A stretch of 64,000 bases of DNA from Planomicrobium okeanokoites (lineage in GTDB: Bacteria; Bacillota; Bacilli; Bacillales_A; Planococcaceae): positions 372,001 to 436,000 of the forward strand of contig NZ_QQRS01000002.1 in the NCBI RefSeq assembly GCF_003428875.1, given 5' to 3'. The translations under genes and the position numbers were made by a program. The notes beneath the pieces were generated by a model. The model worked only from the letters and a program-made list of their open reading frames with translations, searched no databases and had not been told where the DNA came from. Positions 2,405 through 63,480 of the stretch are shown one piece after another. Numbering within the stretch: position 1 is the stretch's first letter; each line of letters starts with the position of its first letter.

Positions 2405-2525
2405 GCTGAACGTTGATATAATTTTTTGAACGGAGATATAATTTTCTGAACGTCGATATAATCTCCTGAACGTCGATATAATCGCTGGAGCGTTGATATA
2501 TTTTCCTGAACGTTGATATAATTTC
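2405..2525. repeat. Spaced repeat array 1: six units, GAACGTYGATATAAT core, period exactly 20
   Basis: The core CGTYGATATA starts at 2411, 2431, 2451, 2471, 2491 and 2511, so every step is 20 bp. The second unit is changed to CGGAGATATA and the fifth has GGAGCG for GAACG. Bases between cores vary but are T/C rich. A perfect 9-bp-arm hairpin lies 75 bp beyond the right end. The period is not a multiple of three, and long reading frames crossing the array repeat a short peptide in shifted frames; I treat these as non-coding. Nothing else is evident in the gene-free stretch from 2348 to 2933. Confidence 0.85.
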
Positions 2526-2595
2526 CAACACTCCAGTCTGAAAGAAAAAACACTTCCTCCTCCTCTAACATTAAAAGAAAACGGCTTGAACTGAT

Positions 2596-2615
2596 GCTTT
2601 TCGCAGGCGAAAAGC
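2596..2615. repeat. Dispersed CTTTTCGC/GCGAAAAG hairpin, copy a
   Basis: Perfect inverted repeat GCTTTTCGC / GCGAAAAGC with a 2-nt loop. It is one of five such hairpins in the window, each beside a spaced repeat array. There is no run of T after either arm, so it is not a standard terminator. Confidence 0.75.
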
Positions 2616-2933
2616 GATTAAAAACCTTAAAACCTGTTGATTTTACTGCTATCAGCCTTCTTTTCTCCAAATGCATTCGAACGGACCGTTAAGATTCAGA
2701 GTCGCTTACAAGAAATCCGGCTTCTTCCTCGATCATAGCTATATAACGTTGTTTAGTGAAAGGTTGGATCACTTTTTTTATCTTATTCAAGCAACCTGCC
2801 GACTTTACTGCGTTGCGGGGACCCCGTCTGCTAGCCGGCTTGCGAAAACTCTTCTATAGAAACTTCTTTTTATTTACTGCAGCTCCCCATCGTTATATTT
2901 CCTGCATTCTAACATAAATGGAAATGTGCTTGT

Positions 2934-3629
2934 TTAGTTGCTGGGTTTTATTCCAAGTTCCGCTTGGTGCTCTAACCCCTGAACAATCCCTGGAATTTCA
3001 TCCAGAGCGTCGATGGTAAAATGAGCTTTCGCATTTTCCCACTGAGCATTCCGCTTCCAGACACTTATCATCCCAGCACCCGCGGACGCTGCCACATCGT
3101 TCGCCGGATGGTCGCCGACAAAGATTGCCTCCTCCGCTTCTGCGCCAAGATGTTCCAGCGCTCTTTCAAATATCCGTTTATCCGGTTTCCGCAAGCCTTC
3201 CTTTTCAGAAATCAAAATCACATCAAAGTATTCCTCTATGCCGAGAGCCTCGATATTGCCTGCCTGAAATTCCGTATAACCATTCGTGATCATGCCGATT
3301 TGAAGCTGTTGTGCCTTCAGTTTCTCAAGCATCTGGATGAGATGCGGAAAAGGAACACAATGCGCGGCAAAATGAGCCAAATAATCTTCCAGCAGCTGCT
3401 CCTGAGAAATCTCTGTGATATTGAATTCTTCAACTAACTGCTGGTAGACCTTATCTTTCCAGACATATCCGTAATCATCCAGTTGGATGAAGCGCTGCAT
3501 ATAATCCGTCTGATCAATATGACCCAGCACCTCAATTAATCGCCTATATTGATTTGAAACGAACTTTTCCACTGATTTATCGCGGTCCAGCAAGGTTCCG
3601 TCCAAATCGAAGATGACTGCTTTTATCAT
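2934..3629 (-). CDS. HAD-superfamily phosphatase (YjjG/YfnB-like)
   Basis: This 231-residue protein carries all four HAD motifs: DLDGT near the N-terminus (nucleophile and acid/base Asp), TNGY in the middle, a Lys in GLRKPDKRIF and GDHPANDVAAS at the end. A helical C1-type cap lies between motifs I and II. The layout fits phosphatases of nucleotides or small phosphorylated metabolites. I start at 3629 because GGAGG lies upstream (11 nt spacing) and the motif-I strand begins at once; an ATG 27 bp further upstream lacks a binding site. It appears to be a single-gene unit. Confidence 0.85.
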   Translation of the reverse strand: MIKAVIFDLDGTLLDRDKSVEKFVSNQYRRLIEVLGHIDQTDYMQRFIQLDDYGYVWKDKVYQQLVEEFNITEISQEQLLEDYLAHFAAHCVPFPHLIQMLEKLKAQQLQIGMITNGYTEFQAGNIEALGIEEYFDVILISEKEGLRKPDKRIFERALEHLGAEAEEAIFVGDHPANDVAASAGAGMISVWKRNAQWENAKAHFTIDALDEIPGIVQGLEHQAELGIKPSN

Positions 3630-3789
3630 GTTTTTAAAGACCTCCGTTTCCCCCATTACTTCACATTGGTATAAATAATACAGTATTTTGGAACTTTTTT
3701 GAAATAAAGGTCTTTGTGCCTATATAACCTTCAAGATTTCCCTATTATAATTTTCTGGATATCACAATTTTGTTAGATGGGGGAAAGAG

Positions 3790-5157
3790 ATGAAAAAATT
3801 ATTGGTTTTATTGATGGCAGTATTATTGGTGGTTTCCGCTTTACCTGCTTCAACGTTCGCGATTGCGAAAGATGATCCTGAGTTTGAAAAATTCCTTGAA
3901 GAAATCAACTGGTCCAAAAAGAGTTATATAAATTACCTGATGGAAAAAAACTGGTCCCTGGATGATTTCGGTGATGTATCTGAGCTCGGAACCCCATTGT
4001 CTGAAGAAGGCGTTCAGACTGTCATGGAAGACTTCGAACTGACTCGTGAAGAATTGAACGAGTTGCTGGTGGAGTTTGGTGATATCGAAGAAGGCGAAGA
4101 CGTTCTGGATGGAACTTACCTCATCTTCAACGAAGAATTGTATTTCTTTACAGAATATTATTTGACTGCAGACTTCGGAATGATTGATGAAGACGGCGAA
4201 GAATTCACTGCATTCCTGGAAAGCATCAACTGGACTAAAGAAGATTACCTGGCTTACCTTGACAGCAAAGACTGGGGCCTTGAATATTTCTCTGACGTCT
4301 CGGAATTAGGGACGCCATTGTCTGAAGAAGGCGTTCAGAAAGTAATGAAAGATTTCGATTTGACGCGTGAAGAACTGAATGCATTGCTTGTCGAATACGG
4401 TGATATTGAAGAAGGCCAGGATGTATTGGACAGCAATATGTATATCATATTCAATGAAGATCTTTATTTCTATGTGGAATGGTACTTGGATGATGAAAAC
4501 TATATCGACCTGAATGATTTGGACATCTTTACAGAAGTCGGTCTTACTGAAGAAGAATTGGACCGCCTGTTTGAACATTTTATTACATTGAACTTTGAAG
4601 ATGAAACATTTTTAGATCAATTAGATGCTCTATTGCAGCGTTTGGATGCTGTACCTTACTTTGAAAGCGCAGATGACCTGGACGCTGAAGAAATCGCGAT
4701 CCTATTGGATATCTTCGATGACATGATGAACTTGTTCGAAGTTGAAACAAAGTACTACCTGACTGACGGCACAGAAAAAACAGCACTTACATTGACTGCA
4801 TTGCTGGCTTTGGAAACGACAAACGGTAAAGATTTGCTGATTGAAATCTTCGATCGTGAAGGCACTTTCCTTGCTGACATCGTCTTGACAGCTGAAATGT
4901 TCGGATCTGAGATCATTGAAGAAACTGGCAAAGACCTTGAAGTCGTTGAAGAAGTGATTGCAGCTCCTGTAAAAGAAACTAAAGAAGTGAAAAAAGAAGT
5001 GAAGTCCGTGAAAAAAGATACAAAAGCTGTACAAACAACCAAAGGCGGAAAACTTCCGAAAACCGCTACTGATTATGTAAGCAACACATTAGTCGGATTT
5101 GCGTTCGTATTGATCGGATTCCTTTTGTTCCGCCGCATGAAAACTGTGAGCAACTGA
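3790..5157 (+). CDS. Processed acidic surface protein with LPKTA sorting signal
   Basis: A 455-residue, very acidic exported protein. Residues 1-25 are a signal peptide. Residues of about 28-118 and 137-230 are a tandem duplication; each copy has an INW-K--Y--YL motif, a VSELGTPLSEEGVQ block, LTREELN and GDIEEG. The C-terminus has LPKTA (422-426), a hydrophobic helix and FRRMK, i.e. a cell-wall sorting signal of the LPXTA type used by class D sortases. The next gene is such a sortase. The family matches what is known as processed acidic surface protein; its biological role is unknown. GGGGGAAAGAG precedes the ATG. Confidence 0.88.
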   Translation: MKKLLVLLMAVLLVVSALPASTFAIAKDDPEFEKFLEEINWSKKSYINYLMEKNWSLDDFGDVSELGTPLSEEGVQTVMEDFELTREELNELLVEFGDIEEGEDVLDGTYLIFNEELYFFTEYYLTADFGMIDEDGEEFTAFLESINWTKEDYLAYLDSKDWGLEYFSDVSELGTPLSEEGVQKVMKDFDLTREELNALLVEYGDIEEGQDVLDSNMYIIFNEDLYFYVEWYLDDENYIDLNDLDIFTEVGLTEEELDRLFEHFITLNFEDETFLDQLDALLQRLDAVPYFESADDLDAEEIAILLDIFDDMMNLFEVETKYYLTDGTEKTALTLTALLALETTNGKDLLIEIFDREGTFLADIVLTAEMFGSEIIEETGKDLEVVEEVIAAPVKETKEVKKEVKSVKKDTKAVQTTKGGKLPKTATDYVSNTLVGFAFVLIGFLLFRRMKTVSN

Positions 5158-5160
5158 TTG

Positions 5161-5817
5161 ATGAGAACTAAAAGCAACAAAGGGGCCGGCCGCAAAAAAA
5201 TGATTTTGTCGGTCCTGGCTTTATCAATGATTGCATTCGGTCTTTGGTTCAGCGGCACAAATGCCGCCACTTTCCTGAAGGGCTATCTGCTTTTTAAAAC
5301 CGGCCAGGTCAATGAAACGGAAGTCAGTGCCAAGACGGCGACTTCCACGGAAGCGATCAGCCTGCCGGAAGAAGATGAAGAAGAAGATGAAGTCCTTTAT
5401 CCGGTGCGTCCCGTAATAGGCGAAAATATCGGTGATTTGAAGATTCCCGTAATCGGCGCGACATTGCCGATTTTTCACGGCACCGATGAAGATGAGCTGC
5501 TGAAAGGCGTCGGCCATTTTGCGGACAGTGTCTTGCCCGGGGAAAAGGACAATACGGTTCTTTCCGGTCATATGGACACCGTGTTCCGCGAATTGGGTGA
5601 AGTCGGCAAAGGCGACTTGCTGATTGTCGAAACATCCGCCGGGAAATTCACCTATAAGGTGAGAAAAACCCGGATTGTGGACGCAGATGACCGCACGGTG
5701 ATCGTGCCGAAACCCAAAGCTACGCTGACGGTTTCGACATGCTACCCGTTTGATTTCATCGGTTCTGATGCACCCGAACGCTTTATCCTGATTGCTGATT
5801 TGATTTCGAAGGAATAA
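5161..5817 (+). CDS. srtD: Class D sortase
   Basis: About 218 residues with an N-terminal membrane anchor (about 15-32), an acidic linker (EEDEEEDE) and a sortase beta-barrel. Counting from a possible TTG at 5158, the catalytic triad is His138 (SGHMD), Cys195 (STCYP) and Arg208 (APERF). It directly follows the acidic protein with the LPKTA signal, so that protein is the likely substrate, cleaved between Thr and Ala and joined to peptidoglycan. TTG at 5158 or ATG at 5161 could start it; neither has a strong ribosome binding site, which suggests coupling to the upstream stop codon. Confidence 0.9.
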   Translation: MRTKSNKGAGRKKMILSVLALSMIAFGLWFSGTNAATFLKGYLLFKTGQVNETEVSAKTATSTEAISLPEEDEEEDEVLYPVRPVIGENIGDLKIPVIGATLPIFHGTDEDELLKGVGHFADSVLPGEKDNTVLSGHMDTVFRELGEVGKGDLLIVETSAGKFTYKVRKTRIVDADDRTVIVPKPKATLTVSTCYPFDFIGSDAPERFILIADLISKE

Positions 5818-5834
5818 AAAATTGCGGTGTCGGA

Positions 5835-5940
5835 TTTATCAGCGATTTTTGATGGTTTATCGGCGATTTTTGATGGTTTATCGGCGATTTTTCGAGGTTT
5901 ATCGGCGATTTTTTGGAGTTTATCAGCGATTCTCCCATTT
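5835..5940. repeat. Spaced repeat array 2: five units of TTTATCRGCGATTTTT, period exactly 21
   Basis: Units start at 5835, 5856, 5877, 5898 and 5919. The first and last units read ATCAGCG while the three internal ones read ATCGGCG; the last eight bases of the units vary. The array lies between the convergent sortase and DinB genes and is followed by a bidirectional terminator. Because 21 is a multiple of three, the minus strand shows a reading frame with a KIADKP peptide repeat, which I regard as spurious. Confidence 0.85.
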
Positions 5941-5947
5941 CTAAGGC

Positions 5948-5987
5948 AAAAGCGCCTCACTCTAATTGTAGAGTGAGGCGCTTTTTT
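5948..5987. terminator. Bidirectional Rho-independent terminator
   Basis: Perfect stem AAAGCGCCTCACTCTA with its complement around an ATTG loop, A-run on the left and T-run on the right. It serves both the sortase operon (plus) and the convergent DinB gene (minus). Confidence 0.9.
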
Positions 5988-5993
5988 ATTAAT

Positions 5994-6524
5994 TCACTTT
6001 TCCGCTTTCAAAACACTCAAATATTGCTCCCACGGACCGACATCCTGCCGGTATCTTTCGGCCATGACGCGCGTGATTTGTGAAATATGCGTCAGGTCAT
6101 GCACGACCCAGGTAGAGAGCAACTCCCTTAAAGTGACGGAGCCGAATTCGGGATGCATCCCCCGCAAATCCAGATCTTCCTCAGGATCCACCAATTCTTT
6201 CAGCTTCTCCAGATTGGTCATGCGTATTTCCTTGAATGCGGCCAGTTTCCGTTCAATCGTGGTATCGGCTGTGGTATCCAAATGAGCGAACCGGTCAAAC
6301 GGCGGAAAAGTTTGGCTTTCCCCTTGCTGGAGCAACGTCTCAATACGCGGAATCCAGTTGCTTAGCTCCGCTTCAATCAGGTGGGCGATCACTTCTTCCG
6401 CATTCCAGGTTCCTTCGCCTTCATTGCAGTGGATCCATCCCTCCGGCAAGCCGGAAAGAAACGCCTCCAAGCTGGCCGGTGTCCGCGCCAGCAATTGTAT
6501 AGCTTCGTCAAAGCGAAAATTCAT
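5994..6524 (-). CDS. DinB-like putative metal-dependent hydrolase/transferase
   Basis: A 176-residue four-helix-bundle protein of the DinB_2 type. The three expected metal-ligand histidines are visible in WNAEEVIAHLIEAE and in VVHDLTHISQI. Family members are often thiol-dependent transferases or of unknown function. AGAGGTG lies 6 nt before the ATG at 6524; the longer upstream frame is rejected. It is convergent with the sortase operon and probably monocistronic. Confidence 0.8.
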   Translation of the reverse strand: MNFRFDEAIQLLARTPASLEAFLSGLPEGWIHCNEGEGTWNAEEVIAHLIEAELSNWIPRIETLLQQGESQTFPPFDRFAHLDTTADTTIERKLAAFKEIRMTNLEKLKELVDPEEDLDLRGMHPEFGSVTLRELLSTWVVHDLTHISQITRVMAERYRQDVGPWEQYLSVLKAEK

Positions 6525-6633
6525 ACAGGCACCTCTTTTCGATGGTTTTACTTTCTTCCTGTATAGAATTCGCTTTGTTTCGCTGTTCTCCTTCCAACAT
6601 CCGGTCATCGAAGACAGTACACAACTCTTTATT

Positions 6634-7656
6634 TTATTGCCGCAGGATTTCGTCCATCACTTCAAGATTCTTCTGCATCAATGAAAAATAAGTTTCGCCT
6701 GCATCGATTTCACCTTGCGTCAGTACGCTCAAATTGTGTAATTGAACGGCTTCCGCTCCAATCTCATTTTGAATCACTTCAGTCAGCCGCGAAGATACAT
6801 TCTGTTCAAAAGCGATGTGATCGATGTTCAGCTCTTCCGCCTGCTTCACGATCTCAACAAGCTCCTGTTGAGACGGCTCGTCCTGGCTGTTCAATCCCGC
6901 GACAGCCACTTGCTCGAGACCATACGTATCTGCCCAATAACCAAACGCGGAATGGGATACGAAGAATGTTTTCTGTTCAGCTGCAGCTGCCATCTGTTCA
7001 AACGACTGGTCCAGCTTCTTCAGTTCTTCAACCAATTGCTCATAGTTAGCTTCGTACTCTTCGGCATTTTCGCCGTCGCGCTCAACCAATTCATCTTTGA
7101 CGGCTTCCGCAATCTGCTGGCTGAGCACTGGAGAAATCCAGACATGCGGATCTACTTCATGCCCGTGGTCGTGTTCTTCTTCCGTTCCTTCTTCGTGCGC
7201 GTGGTCGTGCTCTTCTTCCGTTCCTTCTTCGTGTCCTTGTTCGTGCTCTTCTTCATCCGAATGGCCTTCGCCAAGATCCGCTTCCGGAATCGATTCTGCT
7301 GTCGCCACAAATTCAACATTTTCATTGCTTAAAGTCTTTTGGGCACTGTCAATAAAACCTTCAAGACCCAATCCGATATAAAACACGGCGTCCGCGTCAG
7401 CAAGCGCAATCATGTCCTGTTGCGTCGGTTCAAATGTATGCTCATTCGAACCAGCCGGATAGATCGACTGTACATTCACGTGCTCACCGCCTATGCGTTC
7501 CATAAAATATGTAAGAGGGTAAACGGTCGTGTAGATGTTCAACTTTTCTTCTGTTGCTGCATTTTCAGTATCAGCCGTTGTTTGGGCTTCTTCGGTATTT
7601 CCACAGGCACTTGCTATGAAAATGAATAATAGCAGGGGCAAAAGTAATTTTTTCAT
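6634..7656 (-). CDS. znuA: Zinc ABC transporter substrate-binding lipoprotein (ZnuA/AdcA type)
   Basis: A 340-residue protein with a lipobox (ASAC) and the cluster A-I/SBP_bac_9 fold. A His/Glu/Asp-rich loop at about 130-175, with a duplicated HEEGTEEEHDH block, is typical of zinc-specific binding proteins. Further conserved histidines appear in NEHTFEP, VDPHVWISP and VSHSAFGYW. It follows rpsN by 36 bp with no terminator seen between, so it probably belongs to the Zur-controlled rpmG-rpsN transcript. No permease or ATPase gene is adjacent; these must be elsewhere. Confidence 0.92.
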   Translation of the reverse strand: MKKLLLPLLLFIFIASACGNTEEAQTTADTENAATEEKLNIYTTVYPLTYFMERIGGEHVNVQSIYPAGSNEHTFEPTQQDMIALADADAVFYIGLGLEGFIDSAQKTLSNENVEFVATAESIPEADLGEGHSDEEEHEQGHEEGTEEEHDHAHEEGTEEEHDHGHEVDPHVWISPVLSQQIAEAVKDELVERDGENAEEYEANYEQLVEELKKLDQSFEQMAAAAEQKTFFVSHSAFGYWADTYGLEQVAVAGLNSQDEPSQQELVEIVKQAEELNIDHIAFEQNVSSRLTEVIQNEIGAEAVQLHNLSVLTQGEIDAGETYFSLMQKNLEVMDEILRQ

Positions 7657-7692
7657 CTGTCATTCCTCAATTCGTTTTAAATTTTGTGCTCG

Positions 7693-7962: not shown

Positions 7963-7986
7963 CTTCTCAACCTCCTTAACCCTTAT

Positions 7987-8001
7987 TAGTAATCATTACG
8001 A
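7987..8001 (-). promoter_or_regulatory. Zur box upstream of rpsN
   Basis: On the minus strand the site reads TCGTAATGATTACTA, one change away from the Bacillus Zur palindrome TCGTAATNATTACGA. It sits between rpmG and rpsN, so a second zinc-repressed promoter may lie there. Confidence 0.8.
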
Positions 8002-8220: not shown

Positions 8221-8225
8221 TTTAC

Positions 8226-14875: not shown

Positions 14876-14913
14876 AAATGCCAGTCCCGCTTGAGTGCGG
14901 GACTGGCATTTTT
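14876..14913 (+). terminator. Rho-independent terminator of the SDR gene
   Basis: AAATGCCAGTCCCGC and its exact complement around TTGAGT, followed by TTTTT. Confidence 0.92.
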
Positions 14914-14930
14914 ATGGCGTTTCCGGCTTC

Positions 14931-15003
14931 CGGACAGTATTTTTCGAATGCGGACAGTATTTTCATTTTCCGGACAGTATTTAGCCTGTTACGGACAGTA
15001 TAT
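14931..15003. repeat. Spaced repeat array 3: four CGGACAGTAT units, periods 20, 20, 21
   Basis: The exact 10-mer CGGACAGTAT starts at 14931, 14951, 14971 and 14992, with unrelated bases between. It begins 18 bp past the SDR terminator. A family hairpin (15103-15123) and a terminator-like palindrome follow in the same direction. The gene-free stretch 14862-15281 holds nothing else I can name. Confidence 0.85.
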
Positions 15004-15087
15004 CCATTTTTCTGGAAAAAACACACGAAGCATTCCGTCAAACCAGGCAACAGAATGATAAATCAATCGCCTTCTCGTCTGGTTCAA

Positions 15088-15130
15088 AGAGCAACAGCGG
15101 ATGTTTTTCGCTGGGCGAAAAACTCCAATG
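15088..15130. repeat. Dispersed hairpin module, copy b
   Basis: GTTTTTCGC (15103-15111), TGG loop, GCGAAAAAC (15115-15123). With its flanks (GCAACAGCGG before, CTCCAAT after) it matches the reverse complement of 63209-63251 at 38 of 43 positions by my count. Confidence 0.8.
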
Positions 15131-15139
15131 GTTTAAAGG

Positions 15140-15166
15140 AAGCCTTAGCGGCCGCTAAGGCTTTTT
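15140..15166 (+). terminator. Terminator-like palindrome after array 3 and hairpin b
   Basis: A perfect 22-nt palindrome centred on GCGGCCGC followed by TTTTT. No gene ends here, so either it stops read-through from the SDR gene or it ends a transcript that contains the array and hairpin. Confidence 0.65.
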
Positions 15167-15281
15167 CATATTATGGGTTTTTCATTCCACAGAGACAAAC
15201 GTCATCCTTTTTCTGGGAACTGCATCAAATTCTGCGGTAGAATATAGTAACAGGATTGCTTATTTACACAAAGGAGCTAAA

Positions 15282-17986: not shown

Positions 17987-18100
17987 TGATCGCACATATT
18001 CCAGTCTAATCGCCCGCATTTTATTTTAAACGCCCGCAAAATTTTTTAATCGCCCGCAAACGGATTTAATCGCCCGCATTCTGATCTAATCGCCCGCACA
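17987..18100. repeat. Spaced repeat array 4: TAATCGCCCGCA, five units plus one degenerate, period 20
   Basis: CGCCCGCA starts at 18011, 18031, 18051, 18071 and 18091; a degenerate CGCACATA stands exactly one period earlier at 17991. Spacer bases are AT rich. A family hairpin follows 54 bp to the right. Array 5 has a related core (AATCGCACGCA when read in the same array-to-hairpin direction). Confidence 0.88.
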
Positions 18101-18117: not shown

Positions 18118-18174
18118 CCGTCACGCCCCAAAGCCACCGAAAATCAAAAAGAAGCTTTCCGCTGAGCGAAAAGC
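18118..18174. repeat. Dispersed hairpin module, copy c
   Basis: GCTTTCCGC / GCGAAAAGC (18154-18162, 18166-18174) with one mismatch and a TGA loop. The 35 bp before it contain CCAAAGCC and CAAAAAG blocks in the same order as the complement of 28902-28960. Confidence 0.72.
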
Positions 18175-28901: not shown

Positions 28902-28960
28902 GCTTTTCGCTGGGCGAAAAGCTTCCTTTTTGGTTTTTGGGGCTTTGGTAAAGGTGGAAA
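28902..28960. repeat. Dispersed hairpin module, copy d
   Basis: GCTTTTCGC (28902-28910), TGG loop, GCGAAAAGC (28914-28922). On the minus strand the stem is preceded by CCAAAGCC and CCAAAAAGG blocks, as in copy c, and followed by TTTTATTT, so here it could act as a terminator. Confidence 0.75.
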
Positions 28961-28976: not shown

Positions 28977-29132
28977 TTTGCGTGCGATTAAATCGATTTG
29001 CGTGCGATCCGGGTCTGCTTGCGTGCGATTATTTTCATTTGCGTGCGATTAAATTTTTTTATGCGCGGTCAGAAAAATTTGCGCGCGATTAGAAGTTTTT
29101 ATGCGCGATTAAAAAAAGTTATGCGCGTTCAG
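28977..29132. repeat. Spaced repeat array 5: eight TGCGTGCGATT-type units, period 20 (one 21)
   Basis: The GCGAT core starts at 28984, 29004, 29025, 29045, 29065, 29085, 29105 and 29125. The first four units read GCGTGCGAT; the rest drift to GCGCG forms, and units 5 and 8 are mutated (GCGGT, GCGTT). The array fills most of the 410-bp gap between the Nudix gene and the second ECF gene. Confidence 0.85.
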
Positions 29133-31108: not shown

Positions 31109-31273
31109 CTCCTCCACCCTCTCATCTCTATGTGTATGAAAATTTTTAATTTTAAATCAGTTAGACTTCTCAATAACCAGTATATCCTAAATATCCCAAA
31201 TTGAATTCACTCTTTAGCCAGATTGTTCACAAACAGAAAATTTCCGCGGAAATTCTGGTCGAAATAAAGCCGC

Positions 31274-31326
31274 GTGATCATAGAATCCGATAAGTGATCA
31301 TAGAACCTCCAAAAGTGCTCATAGAA
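31274..31326. repeat. Spaced repeat array 6: three GTGATCATAGAA units, periods 20, 21
   Basis: Units start at 31274, 31294 and 31315; the last one reads GTGCTCATAGAA. The flank to the left (GGTCGAAATAAAGCCG) and to the right (ATAAAAAGAAGAAACCC) closely resembles the flanks of array 7. The downstream hairpin is also the terminator of the methyltransferase gene. Confidence 0.8.
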
Positions 31327-33491: not shown

Positions 33492-33686
33492 TAAATCCCC
33501 TCCGTTTAAGTAATAAAAATATTTCTTAAGGCTTTTTTATATTGATTGTACGATTTAATGACAATTCTATTTTATGTTTTATAAGAGCAATATTTGCGAG
33601 GAGAGATTTTCTAAAACATTATATACTGGGCACGATTTGTTCATGAGCGGTGAGATTCCACAAAATATCGGCCGAAATAAGGCCGA

Positions 33687-33781
33687 GTGATCATAGAATG
33701 CTGAAAAGTGATCATAGAACCCCGATAAGTGATCATAGAATCAAATAAGTGATCATAGAACCCCGAAAACTGCTCATAGAA
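33687..33781. repeat. Spaced repeat array 7: five GTGATCATAGAA units, periods 21, 21, 20, 21
   Basis: Units start at 33687, 33708, 33729, 33749 and 33770; the last reads CTGCTCATAGAA, sharing the ATC-to-CTC change with the end units of arrays 6 and 8. Flanks are similar to those of array 6 (CGAAATAAGGCCGA on the left, ATAAAAAGAAGAAAT on the right). It occupies the gene-free stretch 33492-34048 with the terminator that follows. Confidence 0.85.
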
Positions 33782-38604: not shown

Positions 38605-38765
38605 ACTGCGCGGACCCTTCTCTCCAATTGCATTTCAACGCTTACGAGGTTAGCTGTCGGATTCGGGACTGAGAGTGCCCCTTCTTACCAAGGTAAGATT
38701 CACCCCAAGACAATAACATCTATTGCCGTTAGTGGTTCCCCCGTTCATTTCTGATTCAGCGATTA
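38605..38765 (-). ncRNA. c-di-AMP riboswitch (ydaO/yuaA leader)
   Basis: On the minus strand the leader carries the conserved ydaO-yuaA blocks in order: CGGGGGAACC, TTGGGGTGAATC, GGGGCACTCTCAGTCCGAATCC-like text (here GGCACTCTCAGTCC then GAATCCGACAGCTAACCTCG in parts) and a closing G/A-rich strand. It precedes ktrA and a terminator, the classic arrangement in which c-di-AMP binding turns off potassium uptake. Confidence 0.95.
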
Positions 38766-38861
38766 AAAGGTTCTTGCAATTCATTTAATAGAATAAAATC
38801 TACGCTTCCTATTGTGTAATGTCAATACTTTTCAACAGAACTTTTCTATTGCCCTATTTTT

Positions 38862-42806: not shown

Positions 42807-42837
42807 TGTCATTACAAATCAAATACGTACATCACTT

Positions 42838-42956
42838 TCTTATCCAGAGAAACCGAGGGACAGGCCCTATGACGTTTCGGCAGCGGATTCGCTTCATGCG
42901 AAAACTGTGCTAATTCCTGCAAATGCGATCCTTGCATTTGGAAGATGAGAACGAGA
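42838..42956 (+). ncRNA. SAM-I riboswitch (S-box)
   Basis: Conserved S-box blocks appear in order: CTTATCCAGAGAAACCGAGG, GACAGGCCCTATGA, CGGCAGC, GTGCTAATTCCTGC and GGAAGATGAGA. An intrinsic terminator follows. SAM binding would end transcription before metNIQ. Confidence 0.96.
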
Positions 42957-56508: not shown

Positions 56509-58944
56509 TTGGAGAATTACTATATTGAAAATATAGACCAGGATTTTTTAGTCTCTACTGCTCTATTGGATGTCATTGAAGATCCGGTATTTTTAATGAA
56601 AGAAGAACAGGATTCATTCAAGTATATGTATGCCAATCCAGCAGCTTTATCCGTACTGGATTTAACGGAAATTAAAGGGCTCCAGATCGGTGAGGTCCTG
56701 CCTCCGGAACTTTGCCGGCAATTGATGGTGCATTATCGGATGGTACAGTCCACTCGAAAATCCGTCGAATTTACAGAGCGAATCCAGACTGTGTACGGTG
56801 GATTCATCGGAGAAACAAAACTTAATCCGATTGTATCCAAAGACGGCAGATGTTTGTATGTCCTTGCCATTGTCCGGGATGTAACGGAAAGGGAACGGAA
56901 AAAACAAGAACTGCTGGATACACAGCGAGAGATGGAAATTGAGCGGAAAAGATTGAGTTCGCTGGTGAACAACAATGCAAATCCTGTATTTGAATTTGAC
57001 CAGCACCAAAGATTCACCAGCCTCAATAAGATGGTGGCGGAAGCAACCGGCTTTTCGGAAGAAGAACTGCTGGGATCCTCAATATTATCTTTAGTAGCCG
57101 ATCATTGCTTGGATGAGGCACGATTGAACGTTGAAAAGGCGTTAAAAGGGCAAGCCCTTGATTTCGAAGTGAGCATTTATACAAAAAATCGGCAGATTGA
57201 GGTACTTCACTTGAATACGATTCCGATTATTATTGAAGAAAACGTAATCGGAGTCTATGCCATTGCGAAGGCGATCACCAAGCAAAAGGAAATGGGACGC
57301 CTCCTGCTGGAAAGTGAACAGCGCTACAAGTCGCTGTTTGAAAATCATCCCCACGGAATCATGACTTTTGACAAGGCTGGCAATCTATCGAGTATCAATA
57401 AAAGGATCGAGTCCATTACAGGTCATAACCTGACGGAACTCGGTGGCCAGCAGTACCTTTCAATCATATTGGACGCAGAAGCGGAAAAAGTGCGCAGCAA
57501 CTTTTACAAAACCATTCTTGAACGGCAGCCAGTGCAGTACGAATTGACGTTCCGCCATAAAAAAGGGCACCTGATTGATCTGCAGGTGATCAACATCCCC
57601 ATCATCGCTGACAGCCAATTGGTGGGAATCCATGGCATCATCACCGATATCACTGCGATCAATCAAGCCCAGCAGGCTTTGATTGCTGCTAAAACAGAAC
57701 TTGAAGTCTTCTGGGGAAATTCGACTGATCCTATTTTTTACATAGACACAAAAGGTGACATCCTGAAAGTGAACCCGGCGTTCGAGAAGACATTCGGCTT
57801 TACGGAAGAAGAAATGGTCACCGGCAAAGGCACCATCATCCCTCCGCATATGCGGCACGACCAAATCAATATTGTAGAAAGGCTCCTTACCGGTGAAACC
57901 GTCAATTCCCATGACACCATCCGTCTGACGAAAACCGGTAAAGTGCTGAACATCATTTCTTCGTATTCACCTGTAAGAAATGCGGATAAAGAAATTATTG
58001 GTGCCACCATTATCTATAAAGATGTCACGGAACTTAAAATAGCCGAAAAAGAACTTCTGAAAAGCCAGGAGAAGTACAAAATCATTACAGAAAGCACATT
58101 TGATATCGTTACGATGATCAATTTGAATGGAACGATTGAATATGTATCTCCAGCTTACGAAACGATTTCAGGATATTCCGCCAGCGACTGTATTGGAAAA
58201 CCCCTGATGATGAACATTCATCCGGAAGACGAAGCCGCATTGACAGAAAGCGTAGCTTCCTTGCTTAAAGGCGGCAAACCGGCGACGCTTCAAGCCCGCT
58301 TCAAACACAAGGAAGGCCATTATATCTGGATGGAGGTTTCCCCAACCCCCGTTTTGGAAAATGGGGAATTAAAACAGGTCTTCACCATATCGAGAGATAT
58401 CACAGAGCGAAGAAAGCTTCAGGAAAAAATAGAAAGAATGGCATTCTACGATCATTTGACCGGTATACCTAACCGGCGGACTTTTGACGACCAGTTGGCA
58501 AAGGCGGTTGACCGTTCAAAATCAACCGGAAAAAAAGTGGCTGTCCTCATGCTGGATGGCCATAAATTCAAACAGATAAACGACCAATACGGCCATGATG
58601 CCGGAGATGCCGTCATTATAGAAATGGCGCTGCGGCTGCAATCCTGCGTCCATCCGACGGCGACCGCGGCGCGTTTAGGCGGAGACGAGATGGGCGTGGT
58701 CCTGCCGGCAATCGAGTCTTTGGAAGCGGCCGAAGACATGGCAAAGAAAATACTGAATTCGTTTAATAAACCGTTGCGCTTCAATGGATCCGATATCAAA
58801 ATTGGCGCCAGCATCGGCATCGCGCTCTGCCCCGACCACTCCACAGATGAAAAACAGCTGATCAAATCCGCTGACCTGGCTTTGTATGAAGCGAAGAAAC
58901 TGGGTCGGGATACGTATCAGGTGTTTGTAGCGGAACGCGTGTGA
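56509..58944 (+). CDS. Cytoplasmic five-PAS GGDEF protein (probable diguanylate cyclase)
   Basis: 811 residues, no membrane segment. Five PAS units are visible by their closing strands: RDVTERERKK (about 125), AKAITKQKE (265), TDITAINQA (385), KDVTELKIAEK (510) and RDITERRKLQ (632). The GGDEF domain covers about 640-805 with ...FYDHLTGIPNRRTF at its start. The signature is GGDEM (724-728) instead of GGDEF, and the metal loop reads LDGHKFKQIND where LDxDxFK is usual, so the second Asp is His. No RxxD inhibition site is seen. Activity may be altered. TTG start with AGGAGGGG 7 nt upstream. Confidence 0.9.
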   Translation: MENYYIENIDQDFLVSTALLDVIEDPVFLMKEEQDSFKYMYANPAALSVLDLTEIKGLQIGEVLPPELCRQLMVHYRMVQSTRKSVEFTERIQTVYGGFIGETKLNPIVSKDGRCLYVLAIVRDVTERERKKQELLDTQREMEIERKRLSSLVNNNANPVFEFDQHQRFTSLNKMVAEATGFSEEELLGSSILSLVADHCLDEARLNVEKALKGQALDFEVSIYTKNRQIEVLHLNTIPIIIEENVIGVYAIAKAITKQKEMGRLLLESEQRYKSLFENHPHGIMTFDKAGNLSSINKRIESITGHNLTELGGQQYLSIILDAEAEKVRSNFYKTILERQPVQYELTFRHKKGHLIDLQVINIPIIADSQLVGIHGIITDITAINQAQQALIAAKTELEVFWGNSTDPIFYIDTKGDILKVNPAFEKTFGFTEEEMVTGKGTIIPPHMRHDQINIVERLLTGETVNSHDTIRLTKTGKVLNIISSYSPVRNADKEIIGATIIYKDVTELKIAEKELLKSQEKYKIITESTFDIVTMINLNGTIEYVSPAYETISGYSASDCIGKPLMMNIHPEDEAALTESVASLLKGGKPATLQARFKHKEGHYIWMEVSPTPVLENGELKQVFTISRDITERRKLQEKIERMAFYDHLTGIPNRRTFDDQLAKAVDRSKSTGKKVAVLMLDGHKFKQINDQYGHDAGDAVIIEMALRLQSCVHPTATAARLGGDEMGVVLPAIESLEAAEDMAKKILNSFNKPLRFNGSDIKIGASIGIALCPDHSTDEKQLIKSADLALYEAKKLGRDTYQVFVAERV

Positions 58945-58976
58945 ATTTTTAGGATGAAAATTTTTGGATACAATAT

Positions 58977-59025
58977 GAAAAGCTCGAAAGAAAGCCGTTT
59001 TACGGTTTTCTTTCGAGCTTTTTTG
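58977..59025 (+). terminator. Terminator of the GGDEF gene
   Basis: AAAAGCTCGAAAGAAA-CCG / CGG-TTCTTTCGAGCTTTT stem with T-run. Confidence 0.92.
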
Positions 59026-59132
59026 ATCCATTTGAATTAACCGTATAAATGTATAAAAGCTAAACCAAATGAAATCAACCCCGTCAGAATTCAGCGAAGC
59101 AAAAAAGCATTCAGGGTGGATGCTGCTTTGTT

Positions 59133-60098
59133 TTATTTCATTAACTGCAATACCTGTTCTTTAGTGGGAAGGGCGGAAATGGCTCCTTTCCCGGTAGTAA
59201 CCAGCGCTCCGCTGGCGTTTGCGAAAGCCAGCAGCTCCTGGTGATGTTCACTCAATACAGCTTCCAGATTGTCCTGTCTTGTATCCAGGTTCAGCAATTG
59301 ATACAAAAAGCCGCCGGTGAATGCATCCCCTGCCCCGGTCGTGTCCTCCACTTCCACGGAATATCCCGCGGACGAATATTTATGGTTCCCTGCGTAAAGA
59401 TCCGCACCTTCCGCGCCTTTCGTCAGCACCACTGCCTGAACGTCCCCTTTAAACAAAGACGCAATTGCTTTTGATTCATCCGCTGTACCGGTGATAAATT
59501 CCAGTTCATCATCAGAAATTTTGACAATATGCGCCATCGGAACAAAATCCAGAATGGTCTTTCGGCAGTCCTCAGGATTCTCCCAAAGGGGCAGGCGCAC
59601 ATTCGGATCAAAACTGATGATCCCGCCGCGCGCCTTGACTGCTCCAATCGCTTTAAGGTGAGCATATTTTATCGGACTCTCCACTAAATCCACAGAACAA
59701 AAATGCAAAAAATCGCCTTGTTGGAACCAGTCCTCATCTATTTCCGATTCTTTGAGAAGCAAATCGGCAGAAGGGTTTCTGTAAAATGAAAAGTCACGTT
59801 CACCGTTTTCACGCAAGGATACAAAGGCAAGCCCGGTATTCGCCTCCTTTGTCCTTACGATTTTATCTGTCCTTACGCCGAACTCTGTCATTTGTTCCAA
59901 TAGAAAGGCGCCAAAAGCATCTTCCCCTAATTTAGTGATCAGTGAAGCAGTCCCACCAAATTTCGCAACCGCAGCTGCTACATTTGCAGGAGCGCCTCCA
60001 GGCACCCGCGTAAAAGAAGCCACATCTTTCAAGGCGATTCCTTTTTGGTGGGGGATGAAATCTATCAATATCTCGCCAATAGAAAACAGATTTCCCAT
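59133..60098 (-). CDS. scrK: Fructokinase/PfkB-family sugar kinase
   Basis: 321 residues with both PfkB signatures: GGAPANVAAAVAKFGG near the N-terminus and DTTGAGDAFTGGF (catalytic Asp) near the C-terminus. It starts 29 bp after the sucrose hydrolase gene with GGAGGAG upstream, so fructose released by that enzyme is the probable substrate. Product would be fructose 6-phosphate. Confidence 0.88.
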   Translation of the reverse strand: MGNLFSIGEILIDFIPHQKGIALKDVASFTRVPGGAPANVAAAVAKFGGTASLITKLGEDAFGAFLLEQMTEFGVRTDKIVRTKEANTGLAFVSLRENGERDFSFYRNPSADLLLKESEIDEDWFQQGDFLHFCSVDLVESPIKYAHLKAIGAVKARGGIISFDPNVRLPLWENPEDCRKTILDFVPMAHIVKISDDELEFITGTADESKAIASLFKGDVQAVVLTKGAEGADLYAGNHKYSSAGYSVEVEDTTGAGDAFTGGFLYQLLNLDTRQDNLEAVLSEHHQELLAFANASGALVTTGKGAISALPTKEQVLQLMK

Positions 60099-60127
60099 TC
60101 AGCACATCTCCTCCTTCGGACATTCAC

Positions 60128-61600
60128 CTATAAATAATCCCACTTCACTGCTTTAAACTCCGCAGAACCGCCCATTGCATAGAACCGGATTTCCTGGCTT
60201 CTTATATCCGGGAAAATCCGGGCGGTGAACGTTTCTTCTCCATCGTCCACAAAAATCTCCACTGAGGAAGAATCAACAAATAACTGAAACTTGTGGGAAT
60301 CTCCAGCGATTCGGCATTTTCTTTCCGTTCCATATGTGCTGCCAATCACTTTGCCAGATAATGTGCGGTCCAGAATGATTTTCTTTTGGATCGCATCGTA
60401 TTTGATCACCGTTTTTTCTTCAGCTCCCGCACGGAATTCTATGCCATATTCCAAAGCGTCACCTTGTTCAAACTCACAGACCAGCTCATAGGTGACCCCT
60501 GAGAATCCATCAACCATTTTATTTTCATCCCGAATTATATCTGCTGCTTCGACTTTATTTTTACGGAGTGATTGAAGTTCCGGAACCGGCTTTTGAATCA
60601 GTTTGCCATCGCGCAGCGATAATTCCCTCATGATGGTCAGGCAATTAGCCCAGCCGTTGATGTCGCTGGGATACTCAATTTCAGGCAATCCCATCCAGGC
60701 GACCATCAGCCTTCTGCCTCCTGGATCTTTCATCGTATGCGGAGCATAAAAATCAAATCCGCGATCAAGTTCGATGAAATCTCCGTGAATCAATTCACGC
60801 CGTTGCAGATCGAGCTTTTCTCCCACAACGTACCCCGCCTGGTAAATATTTTGATAAAGATCGCCAACTGGCTCCAGCCCTTGCGGAGAGAAAATCAGGA
60901 TCCCCTTATCGTCCATTTCAAAATAATCCGGGCATTCCCACATAAAACCGAAGTGTTCCAAATTTGTGGCCAGCTCCCCTTCAAACTTCCATTCCAGCAA
61001 GTCAGATGAACTCAACAAACAGACGCCTCCGGTTTTATCAGTTCTTTGCGCGCCTATCACGGCATAAAACTTGTCATCTGCCTTCCATAATTTCGGATCG
61101 CGGAAATGCTCTGTATATCCTTCCGGAACTTTATTGAGAACTGATTTTTTCGATTTGATGATGTTTCCGTCCTCATCCATCACGGCTATGCAAAGATAAG
61201 GATGCCGCACGAGATTCTCATCCCGCGTATTGCCTGTATACAACAAGTACAAGTTTCCGTTATGCTCAACCGCACTTCCTGAATAGGCGCCGTGGCTGTC
61301 AAAATACTCATCGGGTTTAATGGCAATCCCGACATTCGTCCAATTTACCAGGTCTGTTGATTTGGTATGATACCAATACTTCAAGCCATGAAACGGACCT
61401 AACGGATGCCATTGATAATACAAATGATATTCACCGTTGTAGAAGCAGAAACCGTTCGGATCGTTGAGCAGCCCGGAAACCGGCTGGATATGAAACGTTT
61501 GCCGCCAGGTACAGCTATTGACTCTGATAATCAGGTTATCTATATCTTCTTGACTGACCTGATCAAGCCGAATGTAACTTTTCCCCCGTGGTAGTGCCAT
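60128..61600 (-). CDS. scrB: Sucrose-6-phosphate hydrolase / GH32 beta-fructofuranosidase
   Basis: 490 residues: five-blade propeller with nucleophile Asp47 in NDPNG, stabiliser FRDP (Asp168) and acid/base Glu222 in WECP, then a C-terminal beta-sandwich (about 345-490). No signal peptide, so intracellular, as for enzymes acting on imported sucrose or sucrose 6-phosphate. AAAGGGG precedes the ATG at 61600. No PTS or permease gene is present nearby, so whether the substrate is phosphorylated is open. Confidence 0.92.
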   Translation of the reverse strand: MALPRGKSYIRLDQVSQEDIDNLIIRVNSCTWRQTFHIQPVSGLLNDPNGFCFYNGEYHLYYQWHPLGPFHGLKYWYHTKSTDLVNWTNVGIAIKPDEYFDSHGAYSGSAVEHNGNLYLLYTGNTRDENLVRHPYLCIAVMDEDGNIIKSKKSVLNKVPEGYTEHFRDPKLWKADDKFYAVIGAQRTDKTGGVCLLSSSDLLEWKFEGELATNLEHFGFMWECPDYFEMDDKGILIFSPQGLEPVGDLYQNIYQAGYVVGEKLDLQRRELIHGDFIELDRGFDFYAPHTMKDPGGRRLMVAWMGLPEIEYPSDINGWANCLTIMRELSLRDGKLIQKPVPELQSLRKNKVEAADIIRDENKMVDGFSGVTYELVCEFEQGDALEYGIEFRAGAEEKTVIKYDAIQKKIILDRTLSGKVIGSTYGTERKCRIAGDSHKFQLFVDSSSVEIFVDDGEETFTARIFPDIRSQEIRFYAMGGSAEFKAVKWDYL

Positions 61601-61860
61601 TTTGTTTTTCCCCTTTCAGTAAAAATAGAACTTTATTATGAAAAATTTTTCCAAAATAAAATCTTCAAAGAGCCTATTCTTGCCGACTAAAGCCATTCGT
61701 GGAACTCTCTCTATAAATGGCTTTGACACTGCTCTTATGCGGGATTGGGAAGAAATCAGTCTGAACGTAATTATAGAAATTACTTTTTTCTGAAGGGTGT
61801 TAAGGTGGAGATGCCGAGGCATATGACATCACGGACTGCTTTAATTGTGGGTTAAAAAAC

Positions 61861-61886
61861 TGCAACCGGATTTTCCGGTTTTGCAA
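61861..61886 (-). terminator. Terminator-like hairpin inside the scrB leader
   Basis: On the minus strand GCAAAACCGGA / TCCGGTTGC stem followed by AGTTTTTT. It lies about 100 nt downstream of the scr promoter and 260 bp before scrB. Confidence 0.75.
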
Positions 61887-61942
61887 TAGAAGGATGATAG
61901 TTATTCAGGCCATTCCCAGTAAATGCTCTCTTCTGCTTTTTG

Positions 61943-61982
61943 CGGAAACGATTCCATTTCAAGCCAAATGTAACCGCTTTCT
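61943..61982 (-). promoter_or_regulatory. Two cre-like boxes downstream of the scr promoter
   Basis: CGGAAACGATTCCA (61943-61956) and TGTAACCGCTTTCT (61969-61982) each differ from the CcpA consensus TGNAANCGNTNNCA at one fixed position. Their centres are 26 bp apart. A LacI-type sucrose repressor could equally use them. Confidence 0.55.
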
Positions 61983-61989
61983 TATCTGA

Positions 61990-62018
61990 ATTATAATAGT
62001 TTCAGGATTTATTATCAA
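61990..62018 (-). promoter_or_regulatory. SigA promoter of the scr operon
   Basis: On the minus strand -35 TTGATA (62013-62018), 17-bp spacer, -10 TATAAT (61990-61995). The transcript would start near 61983, giving a leader of about 380 nt. No gene is evident in that leader. Confidence 0.7.
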
Positions 62019-62111
62019 TGAAGGATGCTTAAAAATCTGATAATTTAATGTTTTTATGATTGTGGTATTTTTGTCGACATGATGGTGCCCAAGACAACTA
62101 TAAAAATGCCT

Positions 62112-62420
62112 TCAGCCCCACCACATAACCGTTACAAATATCGACCAAATAGCTGCACTTAGTGACACGATAAATAAAAGCACAATAAAAGGTTCGAACC
62201 TTCTAATAGAGGATTTCCGTTTTTTAAACAACCGAAAAATTCCTAATCCTGCCGCCAGATATAGAACGAGCCCTGAAATCGTCAGACCCGTCAAATAATA
62301 GACTGGATAAATCGATATCACCTTTTCACTCAAGAAGTAAGCGATTCCCTGTCCGAAAATACATAAAATGGTCGCCAATAAAAGAATCCCGACTAACCAA
62401 ACATAGATTTTCTTCATCAT
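62112..62420 (-). CDS. Small hypothetical membrane protein
   Basis: 102 residues with three membrane helices (about 5-28, 38-62 and 78-98) separated by a basic loop (FKKRKSSIRRF). GGAGG lies near the start (ATG at 62420 or 62417). No family recognised. Confidence 0.55.
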   Translation of the reverse strand: MMKKIYVWLVGILLLATILCIFGQGIAYFLSEKVISIYPVYYLTGLTISGLVLYLAAGLGIFRLFKKRKSSIRRFEPFIVLLFIVSLSAAIWSIFVTVMWWG

Positions 62421-62530
62421 ATCCTCCTGGTTCTTCCGGCTGCTTCAGCGGATTGTCCTGTTTATTGGAATAGGTGGCCTTTCTCTATGTGATGATCTGT
62501 TTTATTCATAGAATATAGGTGCGGACTGAA

Positions 62531-63028
62531 TCACTGTTCAAAAGACCAGGTTGGCAATGTGTAATGGAAATAAACAGAAAGCACGACGAAAACCGCAAGC
62601 GGCACGATGAAAAGCATTGCAGTGCCTTTGTTCTGCTGCCATCTTTTGAGCATAAATTTATCGATCAATCCATAAAGCATCGCGACGAAGAACCCTTGGA
62701 TAATATCCTCCCAATGTGGTAATATCAGTCCGATTGCTGCCCCGAACACGCCCAGTATTAATATGTATAACCAGTCTGCCTCTTCAAACCATTTCCTCTG
62801 AAAAGACTCGACGATGACAGAGACGATATTGCCATAGATCAGCACAATGATCCCCATAAAGAGAAAATAAATTACCGTCCAGGAAAAAAAATCAGCTGCC
62901 AAATTATTTTCGATATTATCGTCTGTGACAAGCCCCCAACTGCATATAGCCGTGGAAGATATTAAAGTGGAAAGAAATGTGGCGGACAGTTTTCGTGTAA
63001 CTTTTCTATCTCCGCGTCCTTTCATCAT
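62531..63028 (-). CDS. Hypothetical membrane protein
   Basis: 165 residues with a basic N-terminus (GRGDRKVTRK) and four membrane helices; GLILPHWEDIIQGFF lies in the middle. No family recognised. The start is one of two adjacent ATGs (63028 or 63025). Upstream, 63029-63606 holds a hairpin module and array 8 but no gene. Confidence 0.55.
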   Translation of the reverse strand: MMKGRGDRKVTRKLSATFLSTLISSTAICSWGLVTDDNIENNLAADFFSWTVIYFLFMGIIVLIYGNIVSVIVESFQRKWFEEADWLYILILGVFGAAIGLILPHWEDIIQGFFVAMLYGLIDKFMLKRWQQNKGTAMLFIVPLAVFVVLSVYFHYTLPTWSFEQ

Positions 63029-63171
63029 TGAACCCTACTTTCTTAAAGCTCTTTTTTAAATGGTGATCTTTTTTTCAAAAGATCTTCTTTTCACAATTTT
63101 ATCCTTTTCGAGGCTGCAAAAGCACTGAATTTTTCATAAACACCCATTATTTCCTTTTTAAAGCATTGAAA

Positions 63172-63200
63172 TGAAAAAAGCTTCGCGGATGCGAAGCTTT
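63172..63200 (-). terminator. Terminator-like hairpin beside hairpin module e
   Basis: AAAGCTTCGC / GCGAAGCTTT with a 4-nt loop, followed on the minus strand by TTTTTTC. No minus-strand gene lies upstream, so it would end a transcript coming from array 8. Confidence 0.65.
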
Positions 63201-63208
63201 CCTTAGGG

Positions 63209-63251
63209 GATTGGAGTTTTTCGCACGGCGAAAAACACCCGCTGTTGCGCT
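63209..63251. repeat. Dispersed hairpin module, copy e
   Basis: GTTTTTCGC (63216-63224), ACG, GCGAAAAAC (63228-63236). Its reverse complement, with flanks GCAACAGCGG and CTCCAAT, matches 15088-15130. Confidence 0.8.
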
Positions 63252-63366
63252 TGAACTTTAGGTGTGTGGGAAACTGGTATTGGCTTGAAAAACGGTTATT
63301 GCTGATATTATTCCATCATTTTAGCGGAATTTTGCCAGAAACAGGGAGACGAATAGGCTCACGGGG

Positions 63367-63480
63367 TTCTATGAGCACTTTTTGATGTTCTATGATCACT
63401 TATTTCATTCTATGATCACTCATTTGATTCTATGATCACTTATTTCATTCTATGATCACTTTTCGGTGTTCTATGATCAT
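63367..63480. repeat. Spaced repeat array 8: six TTCTATGATCAC units, periods 21, 20, 20, 20, 21
   Basis: Units start at 63367, 63388, 63408, 63428, 63448 and 63469. This is the reverse complement of the GTGATCATAGAA core of arrays 6 and 7. The unit at 63367 reads TATGAGCAC, i.e. the same variant (GTGCTCATAGAA) as the end units of the other two arrays. Confidence 0.87.

Follow-up and report, generated by a model that had tools for sequence, protein, structure and literature searches.

What kind of element keeps a spacing of 20 or 21 bp in array after array and at the same time changes its sequence from one array to the next? The question is raised by eight intergenic arrays of short direct repeats in a segment of the Planomicrobium okeanokoites genome, which we call the window (64,000 nucleotides; contig NZ_QQRS01000002.1, positions 372,001 to 436,000, or C12:372001-436000 of the 3.30 Mb draft genome G000). 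In the broadest terms these arrays are interspersed intergenic repeats with iteron geometry. It seems to us an even call whether they are, more specifically, iteron-like rows of sites for one or more putative sequence-specific DNA-binding proteins, dispersed in the manner of repetitive extragenic palindromic (REP) elements.

The window was searched de novo for 9-mers recurring with up to one mismatch in at least three units at steps of 12-45 bp. Run blind, this detector recovered all eight arrays where the initial annotation had placed them, and their positions also agree with Tandem Repeats Finder (TRF). The 12 rows of output comprise the eight arrays, three coding repeats (periods 36, 21 and 18) and one repeat of period 16-17; 20 dinucleotide shuffles of the window gave four arrays in total, whatever the period. 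All 35 steps within the arrays (5, 4, 3, 5, 7, 2, 4 and 5 in arrays 1 to 8, excluding the weak last step of array 3, which is also 21 bp) are 20 or 21 bp, as had been claimed, a uniformity that is partly built in because the detector allows a chain no more than 1 bp of variation in its steps. Under a rule admitting 19-22 bp, ten core families gave 583 steps, 577 of them 20 or 21 bp; the F5 row of this count (a 9-mer with three mismatches) was noise and was dropped, and the F8 and F9 patterns overlap.

The same period prevails in the rest of the genome. Our sample comprised the window and 20 stretches of 20 kb (464 kb together), and with periods of 10-60 bp allowed, 32 of its 34 intergenic arrays have a period of 20-21 bp; the wide spread of periods that the initial annotation had named as evidence against itself was not found. 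The 145 steps measured in this genome divide into 70 of 20 bp and 75 of 21 bp, and five shuffles of its intergenic DNA yielded a single array and none of period 20-21. Four of the 20 stretches (C1:160001, C12:500001, C21:150001, C21:280001) had been placed on known F1 arrays, so that the array density of the sample is biased. The other 16 (320 kb) contain ten intergenic arrays, of which one stretch alone accounts for seven; 13 of the stretches have none, and the genome may hold very roughly 100 arrays, strongly clustered.

Within the arrays, conservation is confined to part of each unit. For 118 distinct arrays of at least four units, identity among units is 0.871 in the best 11-bp window and 0.375 in the middle of the spacer; the median gap is 0.50, and 103 of the 118 lie beyond the 95% point of an unconditioned neutral simulation. 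Neutral simulated arrays that had passed the same detector with a core identity of 0.80-0.94 kept a spacer identity of 0.763, and a core-spacer gap of 0.40 arose in 18 of 1357 simulated neutral arrays. In five families (F2, F4, F8, F9, F11; 6-10 arrays per family) core identity within arrays exceeds that of all 100 unit permutations, which is not the case for F1, and spacer likeness within arrays rises above the permutations only in F1 and, barely, in F9. Across the 464 kb, searches with eight core patterns (two of them without a match) gave 75 occurrences in arrays and four alone. The simplest reading is that units descend by duplication and that spacers have drifted to saturation while cores were held.

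Most core families recur at unlinked loci. Twelve were distinguished: F1 (GTGATCATAGAA), F2 (TGAACGCnGATATAAT), F3 (CCGGACAGTATTT), F4 (TAATCGC(A/C)CGCAAA), F5 (CGCAAACAA), F6 (TGTCGTATAG), F7 (CGTAAGATAGAA), F8 (AAAATCGCnGATAAA), F9 (GCGCGGATAAAC), F10 (TAGCCGATCAyAAA), F11 (AGTTGGGAGTAAA) and F12 (TTGGAAAGTATTT). The cores in the window had been described as unrelated, which holds only in part: arrays 6, 7 and 8 have the same core, array 8 on the opposite strand, arrays 4 and 5 carry variants of TAATCGC(A/C)CGCA, and arrays 1, 2 and 3 have sister arrays elsewhere. Read side by side, many cores appear to combine an ATAAA- or GTATT-like right half with a differing left half. The F1 core includes the 6-bp palindrome TGATCA, and that of F8 a near-palindrome. 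Pairs of F1 cores were found in 10 of 120 genomes including G000, all ten among the 46 genomes of the genus (reversed control, 0), with 0 to 53 pairs per genome. Tandem sigma-28 promoters, which came to mind as F2 and F8 contain GCCGATAT/GCCGATAA, were rejected, the spacing to the TAAA box being off the consensus.

A second recurrent feature is a palindrome. In this genome TTTTCGC-n-GCGAAAA has 33 copies (reversed pattern, one), of which 30 lie within 200 bp of a 20-21 bp array and two more within 253 bp; the last (at L204) falls in an open frame according to a simple mask of open reading frames (ORFs), and a codon-scored gene caller ends the gene just before it. Each array of the window had been credited with a strong hairpin to one side, and this claim mixes different features. 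The recurrent palindrome accompanies arrays 1, 3, 5 and 8 and, in imperfect form, array 4; the hairpin at array 2 is terminator-like, and arrays 6 and 7 have, by eye, other inverted repeats. Genomes of the genus contain 0 to 69 palindromes (reversed control, 0 to 7), with the highest counts in the array-rich G043, G007, G005, G000, G037 and G026; G003 has 25 palindromes, yet no CGCnGATA triple and no array in 15 kb. Whole composites, each made of an array, a linker and a palindrome, follow one another in tandem in G043 and G028, spaced about 190 to 270 bp and differing in unit number, and one 24 kb stretch of G043 has them in many gaps between ordinary-looking genes. No such palindrome was seen beside the arrays inspected outside the genus. 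Beyond the palindrome-rich Planococcus, hairpins near arrays are varied, several of them terminator-like, and some arrays have none, which rules out one hairpin common to all arrays.

Arrays lie mainly 3' of genes. According to simple in-house gene calls, convergent gaps hold 13 of the 31 placed arrays of this genome (five of the 13 in one gap) and make up 13% of intergenic bases in gaps of at least 150 bp. Counted as distinct gaps, arrays occupy 8 convergent, 12 tandem and 4 divergent ones, versus 17, 96 and 43 gaps of at least 150 bp overall. Between tandem genes, 12 of 13 arrays are closer to the upstream stop than to the next start, as are 5 of 7 in G062 and 2 of 2 in G038. Some arrays sit past a terminator-like hairpin. 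Orientation depends on the family: along the leading strand run 23 of 24 arrays of a group assembled post hoc (F5, F8, F9 and the CGCAGATAA type), 39 of 53 from all families except F1, and 10 of 21 of F1, counts in which orthologous arrays appear repeatedly, the leading strand also tracks gene direction, and automatic family assignment was partly wrong (array 5 was put under F5 and two arrays were left unassigned). At tandem sites, 25 of 29 arrays are oriented with the genes; F7 and one family of G062 have the opposite orientation (0/3 each).

Arrays of the same period occur well beyond this genome. They make up 9 of 11 intergenic arrays in G062, which belongs to another genus (20 stretches, 400 kb), and all 16 in seven named Planococcus/Planomicrobium loci. 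Judged by the protein that served as tag, the nearest named loci are those of Planococcus sp. MER TA 32b (93%), Planomicrobium sp. Y74 (91%) and P. halotolerans (90%), for which reason the genus is treated here as Planococcus as GTDB defines it. Three copies of TATCnGCG with free gaps of 2-30 were matched in 19 of 398 Bacilli genomes including G000 (reversed control, 3). Judged by the first places listed for each genome, 13 of them (five families: G000, G005, G007, G023, G026, G037, G043, G056 and G062 of the home family; G285, G394, G402 and G419 of four others) have steps of 20 or 21 bp, apart from 11-bp steps at one place of G037, and six (G064, G142, G155, G169, G204, G445) have steps of other lengths. 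The detector found no 20-21 bp array at loci from Psychrobacillus (L083) and Bacillus (L094). Other steps were also noticed: one of 11 bp, a single turn, in an otherwise 21-bp array at G037:C1:105218-105299, and 35-36 bp in another repeat type, seen in G142 (C6, C12, C30; TATCTGCGGC with GCGACAGCCGCAA) and in G062 (L237:7692-7806), where the array includes a CTGCGA..TCGCAG dyad.

Comparison of the same sites in related species shows that the number of units changes. At array 5 the flanks can be aligned among six species, all of which retain an array there; the units number 8 (window), 5, 10, 6, 10 and 8. The four units distal to the palindrome match one-to-one in five of the species (five units in L080); differences in number lie towards the palindrome, which is missing from the two shortest arrays. 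Neighbouring units on this proximal side share a changed core (GTGGGCG in L078, GCGGGCG in L079) and differ in their spacers. In F1 arrays, a unit with the GCTC variant is the last one in 21 of 34 and the first in 1 of 34, and accounts for 14 of 157 inner units. Additional units of the tandem composites in G043 are internal, and one array in L074 contains 40-bp higher-order repeats. The array 7 site has related arrays in other Planococcus species. Upstream of the gene for the tag protein, an F2-type array with palindrome is present in L077 and L079 and not in the window, L078 or L081, and L080 has a palindrome and no detected array. The marks of a miniature inverted-repeat transposable element (MITE), target-site duplication and terminal inverted repeats, were both looked for at a single site without being seen, although divergence at this site is too great to place the borders exactly.

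If the arrays are rows of protein-binding sites, each unit would consist of a core of 11-15 bp and 5-8 bp constrained in length only, and one or several proteins, possibly cooperating, would line up next to each other, every one covering two helical turns. A demand for helical phasing could equally be satisfied by 10 or 31 bp; unit size, head-to-tail order and a step of two turns fit iteron-like protein sites in adjacent packing. Array length would shift by whole units through tandem duplication or exchange, after which spacers would drift freely and selection for binding would hold the cores, perhaps to the benefit of the host. Several core families would coexist, distinguished by their left halves, many with an ATAAA-like right half; dispersal would be mainly to the 3' side of genes, as in REPs, and in one Planococcus group the CTTTTCGC-n-GCGAAAAG palindrome would be a second part of the same element. 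Array-rich Planococcus would then carry many regularly spaced protein rows at its gene ends, and since cores differ at constant geometry, the arrays would form a natural series of DNA-binding specificities.

Iterons are head-to-tail sites spaced about two turns apart. The arrays resemble them as head-to-tail direct repeats at about two helical turns and differ from them in lying at many chromosomal loci and in having many core families. A parallel is on L370, a contig from a viral collection, where six units of the TTCGTACATCGCGGATA type (GTACATCGCGGATA; 3834-4104; steps 21,22,22,21,21) adjoin a gene matching Replication initiator protein A (PF10134, E 6.9e-67). As we read it, this array is a true iteron set of the same geometry; its core ends in CGCGGATA and resembles that of F9. 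The contig also carries phage-baseplate-like genes and is possibly a phage-plasmid. Of the arrays in the viral stretches listed for the TATCnGCG triple, most lie in coding DNA and have a period divisible by 3, and four are non-coding arrays of about 21-22 bp (L319, two in L370, L371). The F1 pair matched three stretches of viral contigs, in which the detector found no array of three units. A plasmid or phage origin of the arrays was discarded, the array 8 query having no match in plasmid or phage collections.

A number of observations speak against rows of binding sites as the explanation. No candidate binding protein emerged, and initiator families are absent among the 20 proteins encoded around the window arrays, 14 of which match an NCBIfam model (sortase, sigma factor, nudix, DNA glycosylase, sucrose hydrolase and others) and six of which match none. 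Rep_3 (PF01051) occurs in 18 of the 46 genus genomes, including two small contigs of G000, and is absent from the array-rich G005, G007 and G037; this result, together with the palindrome-poor genomes, offsets the support from L370 about as much as that contig provides it. The period is less exclusive elsewhere: 20-21 bp arrays are only 5 of 8 intergenic arrays in G038 (20 stretches), 2 of 3 in 300 kb from the genus, 0 of 2 in 300 kb from other genera of the family, 1 of 5 in other genera of the class and 3 of 10 in other phyla. The CGCnGATA triple is present in only 12 of the 46 genus genomes, and given this patchy occurrence the arrays cannot be essential. In an earlier sample that included other species, an array lay within 131 bp of 15 of 19 palindromes and not of the other four, and G038 and G018 have the triple core with palindromes at control level. 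Even inside a single genome, arrays assigned to the same family differ in their cores, contrary to the expectation for one strict protein, and as F1 shows no strand preference and some families do, it is not certain that one function serves all.

The alternatives differ mainly in how they account for array growth and for location. Plain variable number tandem repeats (VNTRs), made by replication slippage and free of constraint, would account for the whole-unit changes between species and between tandem composites, in which the arrays resemble VNTR minisatellites. They would leave the rest unexplained: the units are not alike over their full length, spacers are near-random (0.375, against 0.763 in neutral arrays of like core identity), cores are common to unlinked loci, and one period dominates, with others in 2 of the 34 intergenic arrays. 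The period, the core-spacer contrast and the simulations contradict this explanation, which is improbable in the extreme. A preference for binding or structure over slippage, as voiced in the initial annotation, gains indirect support from the core-spacer contrast, the concentration of cores in arrays and the two-turn step, but slippage or unequal exchange still alters unit number, so that the two are not alternatives. Polar growth by an enzyme, in which each unit joining at the palindrome end would have a copied core and a newly made spacer, was considered because of the one-sided variation at array 5 in six species and the polarity of the terminal F1 unit, and the shared changed cores with different spacers in L078 and L079 agree with it. 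Such growth would be CRISPR-like (clustered regularly interspaced short palindromic repeats) without Cas, and the arrays are like CRISPRs in their alike repeats and diverse spacers, their deviant terminal unit and the one-sided length variation at one site, unlike them in core (11-15 bp), spacer (5-8 bp) and number of loci. However, the argument comes from a single locus, the extra units of G043 are internal, the higher-order repeats of L074 show ordinary duplication, and Cas1 (PF01867), present in 3 of 22 chosen genomes (G062, G056, G285), is found in none of 16 Planococcus genomes including G000; we see only a slim chance for it. We also think it quite unlikely that several Bacilli families possess a novel system which builds and maintains arrays from the palindrome end, each new two-turn unit receiving a copy of the core and a new spacer of set length, without Cas and with one enzyme or binding protein per core family.

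Location bears on two further explanations. If the array acted as RNA, as part of a read-through transcript from the upstream gene that binds a protein or regulates mRNA ends, its 3' position and the orientation bias of most families (23/24 in the post hoc group, 39/53 without F1, 25/29 with the genes) would be expected; but a fixed step of 20-21 bp would not be expected of single-stranded RNA, F1 is unbiased, F7 and one G062 family are reversed, and arrays past a terminator-like hairpin fit poorly. This explanation has little probability in our view. A stronger case, though still a doubtful one, can be made for selfish interspersed repeats without host function, in which some mobilising enzyme other than those tested would recognise core and palindrome and 3' sites would merely be harmless. 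Copy number is very unequal among species (palindromes 0 to 69, F1 pairs 0 to 53), G043 has tandem whole composites and one family crowded in 24 kb, the F2-type array with its palindrome is present or absent at the same site in related species, and the 3' preference is that of REPs. Against mobility stand the retention of arrays at one site across species, the lack of a target-site duplication or terminal inverted repeat at the single, strongly diverged site compared, and the distribution of the Y1 transposase of REP-associated tyrosine transposase (RAYT) type (PF01797), which is found in 29 of the 46 genus genomes, G000 and G026 not among them; eleven stretches around Y1 genes were free of 20-21 bp arrays and of CTTTTCGC palindromes outside called genes.

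A RAYT link had been suggested by a Y1 gene about 4 kb from the palindrome cluster of G043 and was dropped in view of these eleven stretches, one of which has an array of period 42 about 2 kb from its Y1 gene. In several Planococcus genomes (L392, L394, L397, L399-L401) a RAYT-like Y1 gene directly follows an ATPase gene, which we take, by eye, to be ComM-like, and a second Y1 type (L393, L396) is flanked by palindromes of its own, TGGGTGACAGTCACCCA. Reverse transcriptase (PF00078) is present in 5 of the 22 chosen genomes (G000, G037, G043, G008, G062) and absent from the array-rich G005, G007 and G026; as candidates, CRISPR/Cas1, reverse transcriptase and Rep_3 initiators were all rejected, none of them tracking the array-rich genomes.

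Among described repeats, REPs are reported to be dispersed in intergenic DNA, for the most part 3' of genes and in convergent gaps (PMC3733652). The arrays share with REPs and bacterial interspersed mosaic elements (BIMEs) the location at gene ends, the existence of several families of one architecture and the involvement of a palindrome; they differ in that the repeated unit is a 20-21 bp direct repeat, not palindromic over the whole core, and the palindrome a separate part. BOX elements contain a variable number of boxB modules, whose sizes differ from those of these arrays, and we know of no helical period in them. The arrays resemble pneumococcal BOX elements, intergenic interspersed repeats reported to have proliferated in one lineage (PMC3049150). 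The initial annotation recognised no named repeat family, and so far as tested this stands: an Rfam scan of the window gave no match above the gathering score at the arrays, and titles and abstract openings of the open-access literature matches listed describe no such arrays. Nor do we know of a described repeat class whose defining feature is a direct-repeat array of two-turn step that is dispersed and has exchangeable cores.

Table 1. Repeat arrays and associated palindromes or hairpins in the window (positions in bp from its first nucleotide).
Feature	Position	Strand	Units or sequence	Steps (bp)	Family	Remarks
Array 1	2405..2527	+	6 units CTGAACGyyGATATAATTTy	20	F2	detector, TRF, sister arrays
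Palindrome	2597..2614		CTTTTCGC-AG-GCGAAAAG			~74 bp past array 1
Array 2	5835..5940	-	5 units TTTATCrGCGATTTTT	21	F8	convergent gene gap; core on opposite strand AAAATCGCyGATAAA
Terminator-like hairpin	5948..5985					adjoins array 2; from sequence reading
Array 3	14929..15003	+	4 units CCGGACAGTATTT	20,20,21	F3	
Palindrome	15105..15121		TTTTCGC-TGG-GCGAAAA			~101 bp past array 3
Array 4	17987..18100	+	6 units TAATCGCCCGCA	20	F4	deviant first unit
Imperfect palindrome copy	18154..18174		GCTTTCCGCTGAGCGAAAAGC			~55 bp past array 4; from sequence reading
Palindrome	28903..28921		CTTTTCGC-TGG-GCGAAAAG			adjoins array 5
Array 5	28977..29132	-	8 units TTTGCGTGCGATTA / TTTATGCGCGATTA	20,21,20,20,20,20,20	F4	
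Array 6	31273..31326	+	3 units GTGATCATAGAA	20,21	F1	
Array 7	33686..33781	+	5 units GTGATCATAGAA	21,21,20,21	F1	
Two palindromes	63178..63234		AAGCTTCGC..GCGAAGCTT and TTTTCGCACGGCGAAAA			second ~131 bp from array 8
Array 8	63366..63480	-	6 units TTCTATGATCAC	21,20,20,20,21	F1	

Arrays 1 and 3 are called coding by a crude ORF mask because of spurious ORFs there: we judge the two frames that cross them, 2214-2531 (-, 105 aa) and 14878-15240 (+, 120 aa), to be spurious. Mechanical ORF lists thus include spurious ORFs spanning arrays, and similar arrays elsewhere may carry annotation as small repetitive hypothetical proteins. Array 2 adjoins a gene for a class D sortase (5158-5817; LPxTATN-specific model NF058671), and in G043 a gene that by eye is sortase-like follows a surface-protein gene close to the composites. 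A 36-bp tandem repeat at 7155-7254 lies within the ORF 6634-7656 (-). Away from the arrays, Rfam models matched a cyclic di-AMP (c-di-AMP) riboswitch at 38624-38771 (-) and an S-adenosylmethionine (SAM) riboswitch at 42837-42951 (+).

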